Positions 3,564 through 18,015 of a stretch of DNA of 48,366 nucleotides are shown here, piece by piece. Location of the stretch: contig NZ_JPMX01000092.1 of assembly GCF_000761485.1 (NCBI RefSeq), forward strand, positions 1-48,366. The letters run 5' to 3'. Within the stretch, counting starts at the first letter, position 1, and every line of letters starts with the position of its first letter. Source of the stretch: Modestobacter caceresii (lineage in GTDB: Bacteria; Actinomycetota; Actinomycetes; Mycobacteriales; Geodermatophilaceae). The position numbers and the translations under genes were made by a program. Below the pieces are notes generated by a model. The model was not told the DNA's origin and ran no database searches. It was given only the letters and a program-made list of their open reading frames with translations.

Positions 3564-5714
3564 TCAGCCGACCGGCACCGGCACCCGCGCGGGAGTCGCC
3601 TCGACCTCGCCTTCCACACGCACCACGGGGAGCAGCCGGTCGAGCCACCCCGGCAGCCACCAGTTGGCCTTGCCCAGCAGCGCCATCGTCGCCGGCACGA
3701 GCACCATGCGCACCACCGTCGCGTCGAGCGCGATGGCGACGGCGAGCCCCAGGCCGATCATCTTGACGAACGGTTCCGGGGTCGCGACGAACGACAGGAA
3801 CACCGCCGTCATGATGAGCGCTCCGCAGGTGATGACGCGGGCGCTGGACGCCAGCCCGCGCGCGACCGCCTCGACGTTGTCCCCGGAGGCGTCGTAGGCC
3901 TCGCGGATGCGCGAGACGAGGAAGACCTCGTAGTCCATCGACAGGCCGAACAGCACGGCGAAGAAGATGGCCGGCAGCGGCGAGGCGATGAGGTAGGTGC
4001 CCTCGAGCCCGATCAGGCCGCCCAGCCAGCCCCACTGGAAGACCGCGACGACGACGCCGTAGGCCGCGCCGATCGACAGCAGGTTCATGACCACGGCCTT
4101 GAGGGCGACCGTGACGGACCGGAACACCACGACCAGCAGCAGGAACGACGCGGCCAGGACCGACCCCAGCAGCAGCGGCAGGGTCGAGCTGAGCGAGGTG
4201 TCCAGGTCGATCGCGAGGGCGGCCTGGCCGGTCACGTGCACGCCGTCGGGCGCGCTGGACCGGATCCGCTCGAGCGTCCGCGCTGTGGCCGGGTCGGCCG
4301 GCGCGGTGGTCGGCAGCGCCGTCAGCACGGCGGTGTCGCCGTCCGTGGAGAGCCTCGCCTCGGCGACCGAGCCGATGCCGGGGTCGGCTGCGATGCGCTC
4401 GGCGAGCAGCGGGACGTCGTCCACGCCCAGGCCGGAGCCCGAGAGGTCGGCGACGACGAGCAGCGGCGCGTTGATGCCGGGCCCGAAGCCCTCGGTGAGC
4501 AGGTCGTGCGCCTGCCGGTGCGTGGTGCCCACCGGCGCGTCGCCGGCGTCGGGGAAGCCGGTCTTCATCGACAGCGCGGGCGCGGCCAGCGTCAGGAGCA
4601 GCAGCGACGCCACGACCAGGTACGGCCAGGGCCGCGCGGAGATGCGGTGGGACAGCCGCCACCAGACGGTCGCCTCGACGGGACGCGCGGGACGCCGCCG
4701 TCCGACCACCCGACCGGCGTCGATGCGGTCGCCGAGCAGCGACAGCAGCGCGGGCAGCAGGGTGAGCGCCGTCGCCACGGCGAACAGCACGACGAGCGAC
4801 GTCGCGAGGCCGATCGACGCGAGCACGCCCATGCCGGTCAGCACGAGGGCGGCCATGGCGAGCACCACGGTCACGCCGGCGAAGAACACCGCGGTGCCGG
4901 AGGTGCCCATCGCGGCCGACAGGGCCGTCGCGTTGTCCTGGCCCGCGATCCGGTTCTCGCGGTAGCGGGACACCAGGAACAGCGCGTAGTCGATGCCGAC
5001 GCCGAGCCCGACCATCGCGGCGATCACCGGCCCGGAGGTGGAGACGTCCATCGCGCCGGCGAGCAAGGTGATGCCGCTGAGCCCGGCGGCCACCGCGATC
5101 AGCGCCAACGCGATCGGCACGAGCGCGGCCACCACCGTGCCGAACGCGACGACGAGGACGACCAACGCGACGAGGACGCCGACCGCCTCGGCGCCCGACG
5201 GCTCGGGCTCGGTGTTGAGGAACACCGCCTCACCGCCGACCTCAGCGGTGAGCCCGGCGTCGCGCGCCGGGGCGAGGGCCGCGGCGAGCGCCTCGGCCGG
5301 CTCCGGCCCGAGCTCTCCGGACGGCGCGTCCATGACGATGTCGGCGAAGCCGATCTGCCCGTCGGGCGAGACGGCGCCGCTCGCGAAGGGCTCGGTCACC
5401 GCGGTGACGCGCTCCACCGCGCGCAGCTGAACGAGCGTTGCCTCGACGTCGTCCCGGTAGCCGGTGAGGAGCTCGCCCTCGGGCGCGGCGAACACCGCGA
5501 CGGCGGAGCCGACGGCCGCCTCGGGGAAGCCCTGCTCGAGCAGCTCGGTGGCGGCGGCGCTGTCGCTGCCCCGCACGGTCAAGTCGTCGAGGTAGGCGCC
5601 GCCGAGCGTGCTCGAGAGCGCGACGACGAGCGCGGCGAGCAGGGCCCAGGCACCGATCGTCCGCTTCGGGCGGCGGGCGCTCGCGGTGCCGATCCGTCGG
5701 ATCCAGCCGTTCAT
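3564..5714 (-). CDS. MMPL-family (RND superfamily) membrane transporter
   Basis: The 716-residue protein has the MMPL layout. A first transmembrane helix follows the N-terminal RRPKRTIGAW segment, then an extracytoplasmic domain, a block of five helices, a second helix and outer domain after about residue 365, and a final helix block ending near residue 700. The signature DYALFLVSRYRE (after helix 4) and its mirror DYEVFLVSRIREAY show the two internally homologous halves. Such proteins export lipids or hydrophobic drugs using the proton gradient. An upstream in-frame ATG exists at 5747, but ATG 5714 follows CTGGAGCGACC, a clear ribosome site. It is divergent from a kinase/regulator pair whose starts are 173 bp away, a usual arrangement for a regulated pump. 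Confidence 0.9.
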   Translation of the reverse strand: MNGWIRRIGTASARRPKRTIGAWALLAALVVALSSTLGGAYLDDLTVRGSDSAAATELLEQGFPEAAVGSAVAVFAAPEGELLTGYRDDVEATLVQLRAVERVTAVTEPFASGAVSPDGQIGFADIVMDAPSGELGPEPAEALAAALAPARDAGLTAEVGGEAVFLNTEPEPSGAEAVGVLVALVVLVVAFGTVVAALVPIALALIAVAAGLSGITLLAGAMDVSTSGPVIAAMVGLGVGIDYALFLVSRYRENRIAGQDNATALSAAMGTSGTAVFFAGVTVVLAMAALVLTGMGVLASIGLATSLVVLFAVATALTLLPALLSLLGDRIDAGRVVGRRRPARPVEATVWWRLSHRISARPWPYLVVASLLLLTLAAPALSMKTGFPDAGDAPVGTTHRQAHDLLTEGFGPGINAPLLVVADLSGSGLGVDDVPLLAERIAADPGIGSVAEARLSTDGDTAVLTALPTTAPADPATARTLERIRSSAPDGVHVTGQAALAIDLDTSLSSTLPLLLGSVLAASFLLLVVVFRSVTVALKAVVMNLLSIGAAYGVVVAVFQWGWLGGLIGLEGTYLIASPLPAIFFAVLFGLSMDYEVFLVSRIREAYDASGDNVEAVARGLASSARVITCGALIMTAVFLSFVATPEPFVKMIGLGLAVAIALDATVVRMVLVPATMALLGKANWWLPGWLDRLLPVVRVEGEVEATPARVPVPVG

Positions 5715-5887: not shown

Positions 5888-7027
5888 ATGCGACCCGGCC
5901 CGTTCACCCGCTGGCCGCGGGCGGCCGACGCCGTCCTCGCCGCGGTGCTGTTCGTGCTCACGGTGTTCTTCACGACCGGGCCGGACGACTCGTGGGTGCT
6001 GCGCGACCTCGGCGACGTCCCGCTCTGGGTCGTGCTGCTGTTCGCCGTCGGCAGCGGCGCGCTGTACTGGCGCCGCCATGCACCTGTCGTCGTCCTCGCC
6101 GTCGTCCTCGCCGCGTGGGCGCTGACCCTCGGCAGCGGCCACGCCGACCTCGGCGGCCATGCGCTCTTCGCCCTGTACGCCCTCGGGCGCTACGGGTCGG
6201 TCGAGCGGTGGGGACACGTCGGGGTCGACGTCGCGCTCGTCGTGCTGGTGCTCGACGGCGTCACCGGCGACGTCCCGTGGAGCGGGGTCGGGTTCGGCGT
6301 CGTCATCTTCTTCGCGGTCTGGTACGTCGGCCGCCGGCTCCGGCTGCGCGCCGAGCGCGCCGTGCTGCAGGAGCGTGAGCTGAGGGAGCGGGAGCGTCGC
6401 ATCGTGACCGAGGAGCGGTCCCGCATCGCGCGCGAGCTGCACGACGTCGTCGCCCACCGGGTCAGCCTGATGACCGTGCAGGCCGGGGCGGCCAAGACCG
6501 TCGCGGCGGACGACCCGGTGGCGGCCGCGCGCGCGATGGGCGCGGTCGAGGAGGCCGGCCGGCAGGCGCTGGACGAGCTGCGGTACCTGCTCGGCGTGCT
6601 GCGCCCGTCCGCCGTCACGGACGACACCGCCCCCCAGCCCGGCCTGGCCGACCTCCCCGCGATGGTGGCGCGGATGCGCGAGGCAGGCCTGGACGTCGAC
6701 CTGGACATCGACGGCGTGACCTGCGGGCTGCCTGCGCGGGTGGAGCTGTCGGCGTACCGCATCGTGCAGGAGTGCCTGACGAACGTGGTGAAGCACGCGG
6801 GTCCCGGCGCACGCACCGGCGTCCGGCTCACGACTGAGGGACGGGATCTCGTCGTGGAGGTGAGCGACGACGGCAGCGGAGCGACGTCGCTGCCCGGCGC
6901 CGGGCACGGCATCGTCGGCATGCGCGAGCGCGCGCAGCTGCTCGGCGGCTCCCTCGACGTCGGCCCGCGTCCGGACGGCGGGTTCGCCGCGCGGGCCCGC
7001 CTGCCGCTCGACGGCGGGGCGGCATGA
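5888..7027 (+). CDS. NarL-type sensor histidine kinase
   Basis: The 379-residue protein has four to five transmembrane helices within residues 14-147 and no obvious periplasmic sensor domain. A coiled linker (QERELRERERR) leads to a HisKA_3 phosphoacceptor box ARELHDVVAH with His185. The HATPase_c domain shows an N box (QECLTNVVKHA), a G box (DDGSG) and a final GHGIVGMRERAQLLGGSL. It should autophosphorylate on His185 and pass phosphate to the response regulator whose ATG overlaps its stop (ATGA). It is divergent from the MMPL exporter, so membrane or envelope stress is a plausible signal, but the ligand is unknown. Confidence 0.9.
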   Translation: MRPGPFTRWPRAADAVLAAVLFVLTVFFTTGPDDSWVLRDLGDVPLWVVLLFAVGSGALYWRRHAPVVVLAVVLAAWALTLGSGHADLGGHALFALYALGRYGSVERWGHVGVDVALVVLVLDGVTGDVPWSGVGFGVVIFFAVWYVGRRLRLRAERAVLQERELRERERRIVTEERSRIARELHDVVAHRVSLMTVQAGAAKTVAADDPVAAARAMGAVEEAGRQALDELRYLLGVLRPSAVTDDTAPQPGLADLPAMVARMREAGLDVDLDIDGVTCGLPARVELSAYRIVQECLTNVVKHAGPGARTGVRLTTEGRDLVVEVSDDGSGATSLPGAGHGIVGMRERAQLLGGSLDVGPRPDGGFAARARLPLDGGAA

Positions 7028-7686
7028 CGATCCGGGTGGCCGTCGTCGACGACCAGGCGCTCGTGCGTGGCGCGTTCGCGATGGTGCTGAACCACCAGCC
7101 GGACATCGAGGTCGTCGCGGAGGCCGGCACCGGCGTCGAGGCGATCCACGTCGCCCGCCGGGACCGGCCCGACGTCGTGCTGATGGACATCCGCATGCCG
7201 GAGATGGACGGCCTGGAGGCCACGGCGCGCATCGTCGCCGAGCTCGGCGACGCGGTGCGGGTGCTCATCCTCACGACGTTCGAGCCGGACGAGTACGTCT
7301 ACCGGGCGCTGCGGGCGGGAGCGAGCGGCTTCCTCCTCAAGGACCTGCCGCCCGAGCAGCTGGTCGTTGCCGTCCGCACGGTGGCCGACGGCGGCGCGCT
7401 GCTGGCGGCGTCGATCACCCGGCGGCTGATCGAGCGGTTCGCGGCGCAGCGCTCGCCCGACACTGCCCTCGCCGGACGGCTGGAGAGCCTGACCGCCCGC
7501 GAGCGCGACGTCGTCACCGCCGTCGCGAGAGGGCGGAGCAACGCCGAGATCGCGCGCGAGCTGTACATCGGGGCGGCGACGGTGAAGTCGCACGTGTCGA
7601 GCGTGCTCACCAAGCTCGGCCTGCGCGACCGCGCCCAGGTGGTGGTGTTCGCCTACGAGGCGGGGCTCGTCGAGCCGGGCGCCTGA
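7024..7686 (+). CDS. LuxR/NarL-family response regulator
   Basis: The 220-residue protein has a receiver domain with acidic pocket D9/D10 and phosphoacceptor D55 in VVLMDIRMPEMDG. A C-terminal LuxR helix-turn-helix starts at LTARERDVVTAV and contains NAEIARELYIGAATVKSHV, the recognition region. It overlaps the upstream kinase by four bases and is almost certainly its partner. The likely target is the divergent MMPL promoter between 5715 and 5887, plus its own. Length and motifs are fully typical of the family. Confidence 0.92.
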   Translation: MTIRVAVVDDQALVRGAFAMVLNHQPDIEVVAEAGTGVEAIHVARRDRPDVVLMDIRMPEMDGLEATARIVAELGDAVRVLILTTFEPDEYVYRALRAGASGFLLKDLPPEQLVVAVRTVADGGALLAASITRRLIERFAAQRSPDTALAGRLESLTARERDVVTAVARGRSNAEIARELYIGAATVKSHVSSVLTKLGLRDRAQVVVFAYEAGLVEPGA

Positions 7687-7862: not shown

Positions 7863-7925
7863 TGGCCAACCCACTCGACGAGGCGCAGGTGCGGCGGCTC
7901 TCGCCGCTCAGCGCCGGTGACCGGT

Positions 7926-8160
7926 CCGCGGACCTACACCGTCGTCCTCTCCGCGGCCGCCAAGCGGGCGACCTAGCGCGACCTCCCCCAGCCGGTGGCA
8001 GTGGCGGTCGTCGGTCTCCCTCTACGGCCCGCTGGCCTCGGATCCCCACCGCGGCGGCAAGCCCCTGCGCTTCGAGCTCGATGGCCGTTGGTCCGCACGG
8101 CGGGGCCAGTACCGCGTCCGGGTCGTGCGCATCTCGCACCGCGCGGATGCCTGTGGCTGA
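7926..8160 (+). pseudogene. Broken RelE/ParE-family toxin gene
   Basis: Two reading frames together give most of a RelE toxin. The first reads RTYTVVLSAAAKRAT, hits an in-frame TAG at about 7974, then continues RDLPQPVAVAVVG. After a one-base shift the next frame reads LYGPLASDPHRGGKPLRFEL, then DGRWSARRGQYRV, and closes with VRISHRADACG and a TGA at 8158-8160. These blocks match the beta-sheet core and the C-terminal arginine-rich active region of RelE mRNA interferases. The usual YRID-type strand between QYRV and the final strand is also shortened. A stop, a frameshift and a small deletion make an active toxin unlikely. No antitoxin frame is visible upstream. Confidence 0.8.
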
Positions 8161-11576: not shown

Positions 11577-13001
11577 TCAGCCACCCCCGGACGACGCGGC
11601 CCCACGACCGGTGACGGCTGGCGCCGGTCCCGATGACACCCTGGGACTGCCAGGCCCGATTCCCGCCGCCTCGAACTCCTCGAACAGGCGCTCCATGGCC
11701 AGGCGGCCGTAGACCTGCTGCTGGGTGGCCACCCGCTGGGCGCGGCCGCGGCCGAGGAAGCTGACCATCCAGTGCAGCACAGTGGTGATGCGGCTCCTGA
11801 AGCCGACCATGTAGAAGAGGTGAACGGCCAGCCACATCACCCAGGCGAGGAAGCCCCCGAACTCGACGCTACCGATCTGCACGACGGCGGAGAAGCGGGA
11901 GACCGTGGCCATCGAGCCCTTGTCGAGGTACCGGAAGGGCCCCCGCGGGCGCTTTCCGGCGCGCCGGCGCTCGATCGCGTCCGCGGCGTACCTGCCGCCC
12001 TGGATGGCCACCTGAGCCACCCCGGGTAGTCCGTCCAACGCCGCCATGTCACCCACGACGTGCACTTCGGGATGGCCGGGCAGCGTGAGGTCCGGCTGCA
12101 CGACGATCCGTCGGGCATGGTCGATCTCCGCGCCGGACTGGTCGGCCAGGATGCGGGCGAGGGGGCTGGCTTGCACTCCGGCAGCCCAGATCGTGGTCGC
12201 GGCGTCGAACCGGTGGCCGTGGCCATCGCCGTCCTCCATCTCGATGCCGTCGGTGTCGACATCGGTGACCGTGGCGCCGACGTGGACCTCTACGCCCATG
12301 CCGCTCAGCCGACGGCGAGCGAGGCCACCGAGCTTCTCCCCGAAAGCCGGCAACACGCCCGGGGAGGCATCCAGCAGCACGACCCGGGCGCTGGTCGGGT
12401 CGACGTGGCGGAAGTCCTCGCGCAGGGTCCGCCGCGCCAGCTCGGCGACCTGACCGGCCATCTCCACACCCGTCGGACCGGCGCCCACGACGACGAAGGT
12501 CAGCAGCCGGTCGATCTCTCCCTGGGTCTCGGCCAGCTCGGCCAACTCGAAGGCCCCGAAGATCCGGCCACGCAGTTCGAGCGCGTCGTCGATGCTCTTC
12601 AGGCCGGGCGCGAACTCGGCGAACCGGTCGTTGCCGAAGTAGGACTGGCCGGCCCCGGCGGCCACGATCAGCTCGTCGTAGCCGTGCACCGTCGTGCGAC
12701 CGAGGACGTTCGAGGTGACCGTGCGGGCGGTGAGGTCGATGCCGGTCACCTCACCCAGGACGACGCGGGCATTTTGTTGCCGGCGAAGGATCTCCCGGGT
12801 CGGTGCGGCGATCTCCCCCTCGGACAGGATCCCGGTCGCCACCTGGTAGAGGAGGGGTTGGAACAGGTGGTGACCGGTCGCGTCGATCAGCGTGACCTCG
12901 ACGTGGGCGCGGCGCAGGGCCTTGGTGGCGAACAGCCCCCCGAAACCCGACCCGATCACCACGACCCGTGGCCGTGGGTGCGTGCGGTGCTGGTTGTTCA
13001 T
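11577..13001 (-). CDS. ndh: Type II (non-proton-pumping) NADH dehydrogenase
   Basis: The 474-residue protein has two Rossmann motifs, VVVIGSGFGGLFATKALRRA for FAD near the N-terminus and VVVGAGPTGVEMAG for NAD(P)H near residue 170. It also has the NDH-2 signatures HHLFQPLLYQVATG and a late GDMAALDG FAD-contact segment. A C-terminal hydrophobic stretch (FLAWVMWLAVHLFYMVGF) is the usual membrane anchor. It passes electrons from NADH to the quinone pool without proton pumping. ATG 13001 has GGAG six bases upstream; the upstream in-frame ATG 13034 has none. Its promoter region carries the repeated box described for 13144-13211 and is divergent from a kinase/regulator pair, suggesting redox or oxygen control. 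Confidence 0.92.
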   Translation of the reverse strand: MNNQHRTHPRPRVVVIGSGFGGLFATKALRRAHVEVTLIDATGHHLFQPLLYQVATGILSEGEIAAPTREILRRQQNARVVLGEVTGIDLTARTVTSNVLGRTTVHGYDELIVAAGAGQSYFGNDRFAEFAPGLKSIDDALELRGRIFGAFELAELAETQGEIDRLLTFVVVGAGPTGVEMAGQVAELARRTLREDFRHVDPTSARVVLLDASPGVLPAFGEKLGGLARRRLSGMGVEVHVGATVTDVDTDGIEMEDGDGHGHRFDAATTIWAAGVQASPLARILADQSGAEIDHARRIVVQPDLTLPGHPEVHVVGDMAALDGLPGVAQVAIQGGRYAADAIERRRAGKRPRGPFRYLDKGSMATVSRFSAVVQIGSVEFGGFLAWVMWLAVHLFYMVGFRSRITTVLHWMVSFLGRGRAQRVATQQQVYGRLAMERLFEEFEAAGIGPGSPRVSSGPAPAVTGRGAASSGGG

Positions 13002-13143
13002 CGTTGCTCCACGTGACGAGTGGGATGGATTCATGCACGGCGGGTGGGTGACCAGGCCCCGCCGTCAGCCGCAGCCGAGGAGGCGATCCCAGTGGTCACG
13101 AGCCAACGGCGGTCTGCTGGTCCGCGGTGTGTCGTGCCTGGAT

Positions 13144-13211
13144 GACGGTAGGGAGGCCACCCGCGCCACACAGGTGCCGGCGGTAACCGGTCCCGGCCAT
13201 GACTTCCGGCA
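13144..13211 (-). promoter_or_regulatory. ndh promoter with tandem upstream boxes (copy 1 of 3)
   Basis: Read on the minus strand the order is 16-mer TGCCGGAAGTCATGGC (13196-13211), 12 bp, 18-mer CCGCCGGCACCTGTGTGG (13166-13183), 14 bp, then CTACCGTC (13144-13151) with TACCGT as the -10. The same order and spacing recur at 16293-16360 and 17630-17698. The 16-mer is identical to copy 2 and the 18-mer is identical to copy 3. On the plus strand TACGCT at 13236-13241 could be the -10 of the divergent kinase gene, with the 16-mer centred near -44. Confidence 0.65.
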
Positions 13212-13261
13212 CCCGCACAAGGGCCTCGCCGTCCCTACGCTCCGGGTGGGAGGTGGCAGCC

Positions 13262-14422
13262 ATGATGTCCCGGGCCGCGGTGCGGACCATCGCCGTAGCC
13301 GCGCTCGTCTCGCTCGTCGCCGTGGGCGCGGTGGTGCTCATGGCGCAGTTGGACCACGAGCCGGGCTCCTCGCCCGCCCACCCGGCGTGGTGGTGGACGG
13401 CCTACCTCCTCTACGTCCTGGTCTTCCTCGTCATCGGCGATTGGCTACCGCGGCCGCCCGGGGTGGCCGACGACGCGTTGGTCGTCGCGGCGGTCGTGCT
13501 CGGCATCGCCGTCTTCATGCTGTTCCCAGACCCCGGTTGGACCGCGATCGTGCTGGTCGTCACGGCGGCGGGCGCGGCATTCGTCTGGCCATCGCGCGCC
13601 GTCGTGGCCGTCATCGCCCTCCAGACCTCTGCAGTGGGGCTGGCCTTCGGCATCGGTGTGGCGACCAAGGGCTGGCCCCTCTCCCTGCTGGTGCTCTCCG
13701 TGCTGGCGGACGGCAGCTTCCAGTTCTTCGCCGCGCTGCTGGTGCGGACGGCGCGGCGGGAGGCAGAGGCCCGCACGGACCTCGCCGTCGTCCACGCCGA
13801 ACTGCGCGCCGCCTACACGCTGCTCGAGGTGACGAGCCGGGACGCCGAACGGCTGCGCATCTCGCGCGACCTCCACGACGTGGTCGGTCACAAGCTCACC
13901 GCACTCGTCCTGGAACTCGAGGTCGCCTCTCATCTGGTCGGCGAAGAGGAGGGCGAGCACGTGACCCGGGCCCGGACGATCGCCAAGGACCTGCTCGGTG
14001 ACGTCCGTGCGACCGTCGGCCGGATGCGGGAGAGCGGGCACCTCCTCGAACCCATGCTCCACTCCCTGGCACGTGACGTGCCGGGACTCGAGGTGTCCCT
14101 GCACGTGGAGGCGGGCCCGGTCGAGGGAGACCAGGCCCAGGCGGTGCTGCGCTGCGTGCAGGAGGCCATCACGAACACCTTGCGGCACTCGGGGGCGAAC
14201 CACCTGCACGTCGCCGTCGTCGCCGACGCCTCGGGCATCTGCGTCGAGACACGGGACGACGGCTGGGGTACCGCGGTCATCGTCCCTGGGAACGGCTTGA
14301 CCGGGATGCGGGAACGGTTCCAGGCACTCGGTGGCAGCCTGCACGTCGTCTCCAGCCCCGGCCACGGCTTCACTGCAACCGGACGTCTGCCGGCGAGGAT
14401 CCCCGCAGGACCATCGACATGA
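13262..14422 (+). CDS. NarL-type sensor histidine kinase
   Basis: The 386-residue protein begins with about five transmembrane helices over residues 7-162. A HisKA_3 box LRISRDLHDVVGHK follows, with His205, then a HATPase_c domain with QEAITNTLRHSG (N box), DDGWG (G box) and NGLTGMRERFQALGGSL. No separate GAF or PAS sensor is seen, so it differs from the DevS type of hypoxia kinase. ATG 13262 is preceded by GGGAGGTGGCAGCC. Its stop overlaps the ATG of the next gene. It is divergent from ndh, and the 16-mer box between them could serve both promoters. Confidence 0.9.
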   Translation: MMSRAAVRTIAVAALVSLVAVGAVVLMAQLDHEPGSSPAHPAWWWTAYLLYVLVFLVIGDWLPRPPGVADDALVVAAVVLGIAVFMLFPDPGWTAIVLVVTAAGAAFVWPSRAVVAVIALQTSAVGLAFGIGVATKGWPLSLLVLSVLADGSFQFFAALLVRTARREAEARTDLAVVHAELRAAYTLLEVTSRDAERLRISRDLHDVVGHKLTALVLELEVASHLVGEEEGEHVTRARTIAKDLLGDVRATVGRMRESGHLLEPMLHSLARDVPGLEVSLHVEAGPVEGDQAQAVLRCVQEAITNTLRHSGANHLHVAVVADASGICVETRDDGWGTAVIVPGNGLTGMRERFQALGGSLHVVSSPGHGFTATGRLPARIPAGPST

Positions 14423-15075
14423 CCGACGCGCCGGTCCGCGTCCTCCTCGTCGACGACCAGACGCTGGTGCGACAAGGCATCCGCGGCCTCCTCGCTCTCA
14501 CCCCGGAGGTCGAGGTGGTCGGCGAGGGCGCCGACGGTGATGAGGCCCTGCGTCTGCTCGACGAGTGCGACGTGGACGTCCTGCTCCTGGACCTGCGCAT
14601 GCCCGGCCGCGACGGCATCGCCACGCTGGCGGCGATGCGCGAGCGCGACGTCCACGTCCCCGTGCTGGTGCTGACCACGTTCGACGACGAGGAACTCGTG
14701 CTGCAGGCCCTGCGCGGCGGCGCCCGTGGCTACCTGCTCAAGGACGTCACCCTGGAGCAACTCGTGAACACCGTGCGGTCTCTCGCCTCGGGTGGCACGG
14801 TCTTGCAGCCGGCGCTCACCGAGCGACTCCTGCGGGCGATGGTCGAGCGGCCAGAGATCATCGAGGGAATCCAGCGGCCGGAGCCGCTCACTGCCCGCGA
14901 GGTCGACGTGTTGCGGCTCGCAGCCGCCGGGTGGTCCAACCGGGAGATCGCCCACGGACTGCACCTGGCCGAGGGGACGGTGAAGAACCACATGTCCAGC
15001 GTCCTGCTCAAACTGGGGGTGCGGGATCGCACTCGAGCCGTCCTCCGCGCGCTCGAGCTCAGGCTCCTCACCTAG
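14419..15075 (+). CDS. LuxR/NarL-family response regulator
   Basis: The 218-residue protein has a receiver domain with D12/D13 and phosphoacceptor D58 (VLLLDLRMPGRDG). Its LuxR helix-turn-helix starts LTAREVDVLRLAAAGWSNRE and continues HLAEGTVKNHMSSVLLKLG. The ATGA overlap with the kinase makes the pair co-translated. This is the best local candidate for a factor binding the repeated boxes at the ndh, DUF2867-DUF6463 and SDR-side promoters; that link is inferred from position only. About 160 bp of non-coding sequence follow before the next, convergent gene. Confidence 0.92.
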   Translation: MTDAPVRVLLVDDQTLVRQGIRGLLALTPEVEVVGEGADGDEALRLLDECDVDVLLLDLRMPGRDGIATLAAMRERDVHVPVLVLTTFDDEELVLQALRGGARGYLLKDVTLEQLVNTVRSLASGGTVLQPALTERLLRAMVERPEIIEGIQRPEPLTAREVDVLRLAAAGWSNREIAHGLHLAEGTVKNHMSSVLLKLGVRDRTRAVLRALELRLLT

Positions 15076-15236
15076 TGGTACGAGACAGCCTTGCTCAGCA
15101 GGTGGGAGTCGGAGACCGGGGTAGCTGCCAACGGGTCAGCGGGTTCGAGCCGACTCGCGCAGGGGGTGCCGGCGTGGACCTCGGTCGTGAGCCACCGGTC
15201 GACGCCGCGCCGCCTACGACCCTCGCGACTCCTGCG

Positions 15237-16199
15237 TCATCGCCCGCGGGAGTTCGCGGACCGGCGCGCCAGCCATGCGATGGGCAGGAACAGCCAGAAG
15301 GGCGAGACCGGCATCAGGAGGGCGCCCCACAGCCCGGTCGCGACGAGGACCGTGGCCGTCGCGGGAGGCGGGCGTCCGTGCACCTTCTCGTGACCCCGGA
15401 CGATCGCGCCCAACCCGATCACGAGGAGTCCCGATGTGACGTACCAGAACCCCACGGCCCTGCGTTCGGTGAGCACGGGATCCGCGTCGACCGAGGCGAT
15501 CACTCCCCCGTCCATGACACTGCGGACGGATTCGGGATAGGAGGCGTTCACGGAGGCGACGTGCGCGACGCCCAGCACCATGGTCCACAGACCCGCGCTG
15601 CGCACAGGAGGCACACCGAGCCGGCTCAAGGCAGCCGCCGACGGCGCGGTCCCCTGCCGGAGCCCTCCCGTCACGACCCGCCGCGCCGTCCTCCGGTGGA
15701 GGATCCCGACGATCACCCAGACCGCCCGGGTGAGCACCGGCCGCCGGTACCGCAGGACGGTCGTGAGCACCCTGCGCCCCGGTTCGGCATTGCGGGCGAC
15801 CATCACGGTGTCCATCAGCCGGTCGGAGTCCTCCAGCACGACCACAGCGGCATCGGACTCGACGATGCGGACCGAGCCGAGGCCGTCGGCGTTGCCGGCG
15901 ATCCGCTTGATCCAGGTCGGTGTGGCGTCCACTCCCGCGCGTACCCATTCCTCGGGCGAGCAGCGATCCGGCCCCTCGAGCCGCAGCTCGAAGGCGTCGG
16001 CGTAGTCATACCGCCGGGCGGCGGCGATCGGGTCGGTGACCTCCACGCGGCGCCCCAAGGTGGGGGCCCGGCCCGTCCTCCCAGCCGCCCGGCCCGACGG
16101 GGATCCGGCACTGCGGCGTGCTGCGCCGCGTCGCCCACCGTCAGCACCTGCCGCGCACCCGGGGACGGTGCAGGCTGTGCGGTCGGTTCGAGTCTTCAT
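15237..16199 (-). CDS. DUF2867-like domain fused to DUF6463-like membrane domain
   Basis: The 320-residue product joins two parts. Residues about 45-180 are soluble and resemble DUF2867 proteins, with YADAFELRL early, a RIVESDAAVVVLEDSDRLMD stretch and a closing LTTVLRYRRPVLTRAVW. Residues about 205-315 carry about four transmembrane helices. The pattern AGLWTMVLGVAHV, then FWYVTSGLLVIGLGAIVRGHE, then SPFWLFLPIAW resembles DUF6463 proteins. Neither family has a settled function. ATG 16199 has GGAGGACAGCACG upstream; in-frame sequence further up lies inside the promoter. Transcription probably starts just downstream of the -10 at 16294-16299, giving a leader of about 90 bases. The domain names are from memory and moderate in certainty. 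Confidence 0.65.
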   Translation of the reverse strand: MKTRTDRTACTVPGCAAGADGGRRGAARRSAGSPSGRAAGRTGRAPTLGRRVEVTDPIAAARRYDYADAFELRLEGPDRCSPEEWVRAGVDATPTWIKRIAGNADGLGSVRIVESDAAVVVLEDSDRLMDTVMVARNAEPGRRVLTTVLRYRRPVLTRAVWVIVGILHRRTARRVVTGGLRQGTAPSAAALSRLGVPPVRSAGLWTMVLGVAHVASVNASYPESVRSVMDGGVIASVDADPVLTERRAVGFWYVTSGLLVIGLGAIVRGHEKVHGRPPPATATVLVATGLWGALLMPVSPFWLFLPIAWLARRSANSRGR

Positions 16200-16292
16200 C
16201 GTGCTGTCCTCCAACACCTCGGGGGGGTCTGTCTCGACAATGGAGCGAGTGGTGGCCGGCGGCTTCGGCGGCGCTCGCCCACTGCCGTCGCC

Positions 16293-16360
16293 GACGCTAG
16301 GAGGCGCCGAGCGCTGACACAGGTGCGTGTGGTCAGCACTCCTGGCCATGACTTCCGGCA
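16293..16360 (-). promoter_or_regulatory. Promoter with tandem upstream boxes (copy 2 of 3)
   Basis: On the minus strand the 16-mer TGCCGGAAGTCATGGC (16345-16360) is followed 12 bp later by a degenerate form of the 18-mer sharing GCACCTGTGT. After 14 bp comes CTAGCGTC (16293-16300) with TAGCGT as -10. The spacing is the same as in the ndh promoter, while the sequence between the blocks differs. It would drive the DUF2867-DUF6463 gene. Confidence 0.65.
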
Positions 16361-16551
16361 TGGCTGCCCCATGGGCGGCTGGAGGCGTACGGAGGCGTGG
16401 TGCCCGACTGCTGCGCTCCCAGGGCGGGCTTCGGCGTCGGGGCATCGGGGTCCATGAGACGACGGGGATGCCCGTATGCGCCGCGCCTGGGCAGGACCGG
16501 CCCGGGACGGACCGGACGTCGTCCCGGTGGCCAGCATCGCCTGGTGCGTCG

Positions 16552-17361
16552 TCACCCCACCGTTCCCGCGCCGGGCGAGGTCCCGGTCGACACGCCGGGG
16601 ACCGAGGAAGGTCGAACCTCTCTGGCTTCGGGGTCGGCGCCGTTGGCCGCACGGCCGCCGTCGACGGGAAGGACGGCACCGCTGATGAAGCCTGCTGCCG
16701 GGGAGAGCAGGAAGGCGACCGAGGCGGCGACCTCACGGGAAGTGCCCACGCGTCCGAGAGGGTGCAGGAGCGCCATCTGGTCGTCGGCGTCCGGGTGCTG
16801 GGCCCGGTACTCCTCGTAGCGCTCGGTGGTGATCGAGCCGAGGGCGACGGCATTGGCGCGGATGCCGTCGGGGCCGTGGTCCACAGCGACGGCGCGGGTC
16901 AGTCCTTCGATGGCCGCCTTCGCCGCCGCGTACGGCAAGGCGCCCCGGACGGGGCGTTGGGCCTGGTGGGAGGAGACGTTGACGATGGCTCCGGCTCGCC
17001 CGTGGGCGAGGAAGTGACGGACCGCGGCGGAGCAGCCGGTGACGGTCAGTGCCAGGTTCGCGGTGATGAGCTCGGTCACCTGCAGCGCCGAGGACGAGGT
17101 GAGGGTGGCGTCCCGGAAGACGGCGGCGTTGTTGACCCATCCGGTCAACGGGCCGGCGGCCTCGGCTCGGCGGGCCGCCTCGGCGGTGACCTGGGGGTCG
17201 CGGGCGTCCCCGGTGACGAGCTCGACCCGCTCGTGTCGCCAGTCGAGGCGGTCGGTGACGTCGATGACCACGACGTGACCGTCTTCGGCGAGGTGTTCGG
17301 CGATGGCCCGGCCCACTCCTCGGGCGGCGCCGGTGACGACGAAGGACGGCCAGGCGGTCAC
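16552..17361 (-). CDS. SDR-family NAD(P)-dependent oxidoreductase
   Basis: The 269-residue protein is a classical short-chain dehydrogenase. It has the cofactor motif TGAARGVGRAIA (about residue 10), the structural motif NNAA (about residue 77), a catalytic serine in VNVSSHQAQ and the YxxxK pair in LPYAAAKAAIEG. A closing ISGAVLPVDGG segment is typical. The tail after VDGG is about 35 residues of low-complexity sequence and longer than usual. The start is a GTG preceded by GAGAGGCAGGGAAC. It lies directly behind the SnoaL-like relic and the third repeated promoter, which probably drives it. The substrate is unknown. The 190 bp between its stop and promoter copy 2 hold no gene I recognise. Confidence 0.88.
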   Translation of the reverse strand: MTAWPSFVVTGAARGVGRAIAEHLAEDGHVVVIDVTDRLDWRHERVELVTGDARDPQVTAEAARRAEAAGPLTGWVNNAAVFRDATLTSSSALQVTELITANLALTVTGCSAAVRHFLAHGRAGAIVNVSSHQAQRPVRGALPYAAAKAAIEGLTRAVAVDHGPDGIRANAVALGSITTERYEEYRAQHPDADDQMALLHPLGRVGTSREVAASVAFLLSPAAGFISGAVLPVDGGRAANGADPEAREVRPSSVPGVSTGTSPGAGTVG

Positions 17362-17385
17362 GTTCCCTGCCTCTCCCGGGAGCTC

Positions 17386-17625
17386 TCAGGTCCGGACGGT
17401 GTTCTGCCCGGTGGCGATGCGCAAGCCGGCCGCCGTAGCGGACGGTGGCGGTACCGAGCCCGCCAGGGGACGACCGTGCGCAGGTGAGCCTCCAGGGCTT
17501 GCCTCGATGGCAGACCCCGCGACTGGTCACCCGTACGGCATCGTCGGCGAAGAAGGCGACGTGTGCCTCGACGTCCTCCCCCGCGTGGCCTCGGCGGATG
17601 CGACGACGAAGTCCTGTCTTCCCGT
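17386..17625 (-). pseudogene. Relic of a SnoaL-like (NTF2-fold) protein gene
   Basis: A minus-strand frame contains HAGEDVEAHVAFFADDAVRV, the alpha-helix and first strand typical of SnoaL-like or ketosteroid-isomerase-like proteins, followed by TSRGVCHRGK, the usual next block. The frame then continues without stop into sequence with no family likeness. A second frame gives GLRIATGQNTVRT and a TGA at 17386, which looks like the lost C-terminus. A frameshift is therefore likely. It sits between the third repeated promoter and the SDR gene, as if it were once the first gene of that operon. Confidence 0.5.
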
Positions 17626-17629
17626 GCAC

Positions 17630-17698
17630 GACGCTAGGAGCAGCGCAGGGCCCACACAGGTGCCGGCGGACACCACCTCCCCACCATGGCTTTCGGCA
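17630..17698 (-). promoter_or_regulatory. Promoter with tandem upstream boxes (copy 3 of 3)
   Basis: On the minus strand TGCCGAAAGCCATGGT (17683-17698, two substitutions in the core against the other copies) precedes, after 13 bp, the 18-mer CCGCCGGCACCTGTGTGG (17652-17669), identical to the ndh copy. After 14 bp comes CTAGCGTC (17630-17637). It points at the SnoaL-like relic and the SDR gene. Confidence 0.65.
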
Positions 17699-17967: not shown

Positions 17968-18015
17968 GTCTCGGATGAGCCGCAGCGGACGCCCCCGCTG
18001 AGGCTCATCCGAGAC
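17968..18015 (-). terminator. Long hairpin at the end of the CPBP gene
   Basis: GTCTCGGATGAGCC and GGCTCATCCGAGAC form perfect 14-bp arms. After one G/A mismatch an inner CAGCGG/CCGCTG stem extends the structure, leaving a 6-base loop. On the minus strand the hairpin begins inside the last codons of the CPBP gene and includes its TGA. There is no T-run, as is common for terminators in GC-rich actinobacteria. It could act in both directions. Confidence 0.7.

Follow-up and report, generated by a model that had tools for sequence, protein, structure and literature searches.

Three minus-strand promoters of Modestobacter caceresii (Geodermatophilaceae; assembly GCF_000761485.1, contig NZ_JPMX01000092.1, positions 1 to 48,366; this whole stretch of 48,366 nucleotides is called the window) carry closely similar sequences upstream of a type II NADH dehydrogenase gene (ndh, NDH-2), a DUF6463 gene and a short-chain dehydrogenase/reductase (SDR) unit. 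What is the element that they share, and which protein reads it? We propose, with a probability of about 0.78 and from comparative sequence analysis, that it is the operator of the NarL-family response regulator encoded next to copy 1, with the target genes exchanged. The original prediction had described a 16-mer and an 18-mer as two tandem boxes, with a core recalling DevR/DosR-type sites, followed by a -10-like element. Rereading of the window located all three copies where they had been placed. The 16-mer is exact in copies 1 and 2 (13196-13211 and 16345-16360) and has 3 mismatches in copy 3 (17683-17698); an unrelated match, also with 3 mismatches, lies at 12406-12421 on the plus strand. 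The 18-mer is exact in copies 1 (13166-13183) and 3 (17652-17669) and is only a loose match, with 5 mismatches, in copy 2 (16315-16332). The gaps between the two words are 12, 12 and 13 bp, followed by 14 bp in all copies and then by CTASCGTC.

The copies are far more alike than base composition predicts, since the best ungapped pair scores among the three upstream regions were 28, 20 and 25 and the maximum in 150 first-order Markov simulations was 18. A MAFFT alignment of the three has 40 invariant positions in 69 columns. When the window genome (4.95 Mb, 139 contigs) was scanned, a fixed-gap pattern allowing up to 3 mismatches matched copies 1 and 2 only, the gap of copy 3 being different, and the proximal word plus -10 element, allowing up to 2, found the three copies at 0 mismatches and two other places at 2. 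The inverted-repeat pattern described below, at up to 3 mismatches, found copies 1 and 2 and one place at 3 mismatches; the spacer of copy 3 keeps it out. Because a reversed control pattern gave 2 matches per strand, repeat matches at 3 mismatches are at chance level. A model built from 17 aligned operator sites, including those of the window and of Blastococcus xanthinilyticus, and making no use of symmetry, scored the three copies strongly (Table 1). Its next-best match in the genome was the weak plus-strand match of copy 1 itself (E 0.008), and 37 rows were returned at an E value of ≤1. The genome thus holds three strong sites, all in the window and within 3.3 kb of the regulator gene; the absence of further copies, which the original prediction would have counted against itself, is what was found.

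The conserved core is a single 37-bp inverted repeat, TGCCGGNNGTCA-N13-TGACNNCCGGCA, with N14 in copy 3. In the 17 aligned sites it reads, in order, TGCCGGARGTCATGG, TGACNNCCGGCAC, CCTAGCGTC. Of the two words, bases 1 to 12 of the 16-mer and the initial part of the 18-mer belong to the repeat that is conserved outside the window lineage. The 16-mer thus consists of the distal half-site plus flank, and the 18-mer of the proximal half and a tail specific to the lineage; the end of that tail, CTGTGTGG, was found in Geodermatophilaceae sites only. A model-free symmetry scan, which counts matching positions among the 20 half-site positions at spacers of 8 to 19, gave 30 distinct N13 sites at ≥17/20 (one site shared by loci L103 and L144, from the same genome, was counted once) and 0 to 2 sites at every other spacer. 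Complementarity in 28 sites was 0.68 about the repeat axis and 0.12-0.31 about shifted axes, the former value being inflated by the partial use of symmetry in choosing the sites. Because the spacing is fixed at N13 and the site is symmetric, we read one inverted repeat and not two tandem boxes. In Nakamurella, the half-sites are 23 bp apart, 10 bp more than usual, or approximately one helical turn.

In copies 1 to 3 the repeat ends 24 bp before a TASCGT hexamer. With this hexamer set at -12 to -7, the repeat extends from approximately -73 to -37, with the centre of its nearer half-site at about -42.5, which supports the activator-like placement proposed earlier; the segment expected for a -35 element is not conserved among relatives. 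A second -10-like hexamer, overlooked in the original prediction, lies on the plus strand at the same distance from the other end of copy 1, before the kinase gene. Across 25 divergent sites, letters resembling a -10 element recur at either end of the repeat, at distances that differ by one base. Copy 1 is therefore most likely bidirectional, serving ndh in one direction and the kinase-regulator genes in the other. B. xanthinilyticus has two tandem repeats (L063:7859-7895, N13, and 7913-7950, N14) where the window has one, and the single copy 1 aligns to both; the difference looks as it would after recombination between direct repeats or tandem duplication.

Conservation in relatives, on which the original prediction had staked itself, is clear. 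Matches to a model built from the sequence of the three window copies, again without symmetry, adjoin the kinase-regulator pair in B. xanthinilyticus, Cellulomonas, Actinotalea, Nonomuraea, Prauserella and others. Of 26 loci encoding kinases related to the adjacent one, 17 were counted as having the repeat, and nine were not. In a quick tree of 67 regulators (rows not independent, some coming from one genome), the repeat occurs in 30 of the 35 rows of one clade (Shimodaira-Hasegawa-like approximate likelihood ratio support, 94) and in 0 of the 32 outside it. The label was set by hand and denotes N13 or N14, ≥16/20 and a position judged fitting. Counting any match in the locus at ≥17/20 gave 27/35 and 0/32, and at ≥16/20 it gave 31/35 and 1/32, with L076 and L186 added. 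The five clade rows without the repeat are L067, which has a degenerate N13 form (15/20), L076 and L195, which are one sequence with an N23 form (17/20), L075 and L189. Left out before the tree were L083, L085 and L088, which are distant and lack the repeat, and L103, which has it and comes from the genome of L144; L080, L087 and L099 gave no regulator match, and L081, without the repeat, was kept off the tree. Flanks of the paralogue controls extend approximately 5 kb only where contigs allow.

The same association was seen in 394 class genomes scanned with the 17-site model and with the regulator (two samples taken as the same because size and handles agree). Operator matches occurred in 22 genomes at E ≤ 0.001 and in 10 at E ≤ 1e-7, and the regulator was present at E ≤ 1e-60 in 12 (13 at 1e-55). 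All 10 genomes with an operator at E ≤ 1e-7 are among these 12, and 0 are among the other 382; in eight of the 10 (all but G000 and G039) the sites were not among the 17 training sites. Of the two remaining genomes with the regulator, G049 has a weaker match (4.6e-5) beside it and G431 has none. The association extends to sphingomonads, where loci L077, L078, L079 and L086 have N13 repeats at 16-18/20, located 1.2 to 6.6 kb from the regulator; the N13 scan found no repeat in L080 or L081. The metagenome-assembled L077 has two operators 1.6 kb apart (2167-2203 and 3734-3770) with very similar flanks, one of which precedes a frame similar to the L079 DsbD-like protein. The nearest kin of the window regulator outside the family, from Prauserella and Nonomuraea, are 83% identical, which suggests horizontal transfer. 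The site is symmetric and tied to one regulator clade, as expected of a NarL-family operator. These results support one shared regulatory element at the three promoters and a NarL-family regulator, as originally predicted, and on both the clade and the class-genome evidence the best candidate is the protein encoded beside copy 1.

Several observations weigh against this assignment. The spacer of copy 3 is N14. Outside the clade, L186 has a 16/20 N13 match that was not counted, and eleven class genomes without the regulator gave weak model matches (E 2.7e-5 to 9.8e-4) that were taken as chance. Conversely, the scan found no repeat in G431, which has a 62% regulator (E 2.3e-68), nor, for N13, at the pair of a Kocuria rosea plasmid (57%, beside an ABC transporter) or at a Deinococcus pair (50%). 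Finally, a scan of 112 family genomes gave sites at E ≤ 1e-7 in three, namely, the window genome, B. xanthinilyticus and G687, and in G687 (E 7.8e-8) the best regulator is only 53% identical and falls outside the clade. The G687 site lies in a 148-bp piece (L198:4968-5114) that is 75% similar to the copy 2 region and precedes a BCCT transporter gene; the 10-kb stretch contains none of the module genes, and the piece may be a relic or a moved promoter. The K. rosea plasmid (NZ_CP127860.1, 101219-109780) is mobilizable, and its pair is divergent from the ABC transporter and adjoins an erm gene. Two weak Blastococcus-group sites, G039:C7:55030-55096 (E 2.9e-5) and G171:C4:91519-91585 (E 6.0e-6; best regulator, 46%), were set aside as unexplained or chance; both precede a transport-binding-protein-like frame.

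Linkage alone cannot separate binder from target, and a different regulator encoded elsewhere could bind the repeat, with the kinase-regulator genes merely among its targets; G687, keeping a site without the clade regulator, would fit. We consider this improbable, as the repeat follows the regulator clade through many actinobacterial families and into sphingomonads, and none of the 382 class genomes that lack a close homologue has a strong site, in a linkage test that covered this regulator family only. A similarly low probability attaches to the view that copies 2 and 3 are passive, drifted duplicates of the copy 1 promoter that have lost regulation. Copies 1 and 2 are 82% alike over 44 nucleotides and copies 2 and 3 are 73% alike over 55, which makes an origin by promoter copying and subsequent drift plausible, and the G687 piece, standing before a BCCT gene away from other module genes, points the same way. 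Duplication and function are compatible, however, and the linkers vary while the half-sites, the spacing and the -10 element are kept; copy 2 is also kept in B. xanthinilyticus, where copy 3 was not found. That the boxes are DevR/DosR-type sites can be virtually dismissed: the regulator does match DevR (E 2.6e-29), but NarL, VraR, ChrA and DesR score better, the half-site differs from that of DosR, and the best matches in the three promoters to the 20-bp DosR consensus palindrome reach 11-12/20, a level that 258, 113 and 135 of 300 simulations equalled or surpassed.

If the adjacent regulator is the binder, its outputs differ by lineage. Most often in relatives, the repeat separates the kinase gene from a divergently transcribed ABC-transporter gene, and a -10-like element stands at a similar distance from each of its ends. 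An ABC-ATPase-like frame adjoins the site in 12 loci of one set and 10 of a second, L036 and the genome of L048/L076 being in both. Three of these frames (L066, L130 and L133) were run against Pfam and gave ABC_tran, and the L130 permease gave ABC2_membrane; the best NCBIfam model for the neighbouring ATPase was DrrA, below cut-off. The Nonomuraea site adjoins a RibD_C protein, that of Prauserella a look-alike, and that of Sphingomonas horti a DsbD-like protein. The ABC-2 ATPase and permease found in relatives such as L130 do not stand at the window operators, which precede ndh, the DUF6463 gene and the SDR unit instead.

A working model can be outlined. The membrane kinase would phosphorylate the regulator, which would then bind the 37-bp repeat, probably as more than one dimer. 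With the nearer half-site near -42.5, a class II activator position, it would act as an activator rather than a repressor and recruit polymerase to promoters equipped with a -10 element but lacking a conserved -35 element. Copy 1 would fire both ways, toward ndh and toward the kinase-regulator genes (autoregulation), and copies 2 and 3 would bring the DUF6463 gene and the SDR unit into the same circuit. On this view an old regulator-operator pair would have had its outputs exchanged: most of the relatives found have an ABC transporter, and the window has an accessory NDH-2 plus two more genes. Our guess at the signal, a membrane- or redox-active compound, is based on the hydrophobic kinase N terminus and on ABC exporters as the usual neighbours. 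More speculatively, and less probably than not, a cassette recognisable in Actinomycetota and sphingomonads may keep the half-sites and the exact N13 while its outputs (ABC exporter, RibD-like reductase, DsbD-like protein, accessory NDH-2 and SDR) are repeatedly replaced. The shared theme would be protection from a redox compound that acts on membranes or quinones, to which the window lineage would respond with a spare NADH dehydrogenase where others use an exporter.

Table 1. Putative operators, -10-like hexamers and genes in the window (operator E values from the 17-site model)
Feature	Position	Strand	Remarks
ndh, NDH-2-like NADH dehydrogenase	11577..13034	-	Pyr_redox_2 E 6.4e-46; NDH2_C below cut-off; start could be 12999
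-10-like hexamer TACCGT for ndh	13145..13150	-	24 bp from copy 1 repeat
Operator copy 1	13175..13211	-	Inverted repeat N13, 19/20 half-site positions; between ndh and kinase gene; E 8.4e-15
-10-like hexamer TACGCT, kinase-regulator	13236..13241	+	24 bp past other end of copy 1; 20 bp before kinase ATG
Sensor histidine kinase	13262..14422	+	HisKA_3/HATPase_c: PF07730 E 9.4e-15, PF02518 E 7.3e-7; hydrophobic N-terminal half
NarL-family response regulator	14419..15075	+	Response_reg PF00072 E 8.8e-28; GerE PF00196 E 8.9e-18; proposed operator binder
DUF6463 protein, DUF2867-like front part	15237..16199	-	DUF6463 firm; DUF2867 below Pfam cut-off, E 0.039
-10-like hexamer TAGCGT, copy 2	16294..16299	-	
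Operator copy 2	16324..16360	-	Inverted repeat N13, 18/20; E 2.2e-14
SDR oxidoreductase	16552..17361	-	adh_short_C2 E 2.2e-43; downstream of copy 3, after degraded frame
-10-like hexamer TAGCGT, copy 3	17631..17636	-	
Operator copy 3	17661..17698	-	Inverted repeat N14, 17/20; E 1.3e-13

The kinase has an H-box (DLHDVVGH) and adjoins the regulator, as in NarL-family two-component systems. Its first 160 residues form mostly hydrophobic segments, and the closest named kinase is that of B. xanthinilyticus (89%). The regulator matches NarL (1a04) over its full length (E 2.2e-38). The window ndh is a second copy; the other copy in the genome, on contig C71, is 72% identical, 22 other genus genomes each have a best match of 70-74%, and the B. 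xanthinilyticus ndh beside the same kinase-regulator pair is 90% identical. Of the earlier target annotations, DUF6463 is firm, the DUF2867 part stays below the Pfam cut-off, and the proposed SnoaL relic is a sub-threshold DUF4440 match (E 0.15). The DUF6463 gene, one frame in the window, corresponds to two frames approximately 470 bp apart in B. xanthinilyticus (L063:9829-11287); the window gene thus appears to be the product of a deletion that fused the two parts. A second HisKA_3 kinase and NarL-type regulator pair (5888-7686; regulator 46% identical to the first) adjoins a divergent MMPL transporter frame, and the site scan found no operator of this kind near it. A 21-nucleotide inverted repeat, 95% complementary with a 6-nucleotide loop, at 17968-18015 is possibly a terminator.

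The analysis supplies a precise candidate operator for a NarL-family clade for which the searchable papers yielded no motif, and it links an accessory second NDH-2 with a kinase and regulator, the relatives of which mostly adjoin ABC transporters. If the assignment is correct, the motif can predict targets of the clade in many genomes, and the lineages form a natural series for how a conserved regulator-operator pair swaps its output genes.

Known systems resemble this one in part. DevR/DosR of Mycobacterium is likewise of the NarL family with a palindromic site, but its consensus does not occur in the window promoters. LnrJK-LnrLMN of Bacillus subtilis is a NarL/LuxR-family two-component system beside an ABC-2 exporter. 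It shares with the window system and its relatives a HisKA_3 kinase with a hydrophobic N-terminal half, a NarL-type regulator and an ABC-2 type transporter as the usual neighbour, whereas the window operators stand at NDH-2, DUF6463 and SDR genes and not at ABC genes. ChrSA and HrrSA of Corynebacterium are heme systems in which an exporter adjoins the pair and respiration is controlled. Their regulators are also of NarL type, and ChrA is among the closest solved structures to the window regulator (E 5.4e-32), but the exporter neighbouring relatives of the window system is DrrA-like (below the model cut-off). For comparison with the LnrJK operator, PMC7472640 contained none of the six binding-site terms searched for, and no description of the present operator was found in open-access literature listings and abstracts, subscription papers falling outside the search. 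The kind of system is known; within the reach of that search, this operator and the changes in its outputs are new.

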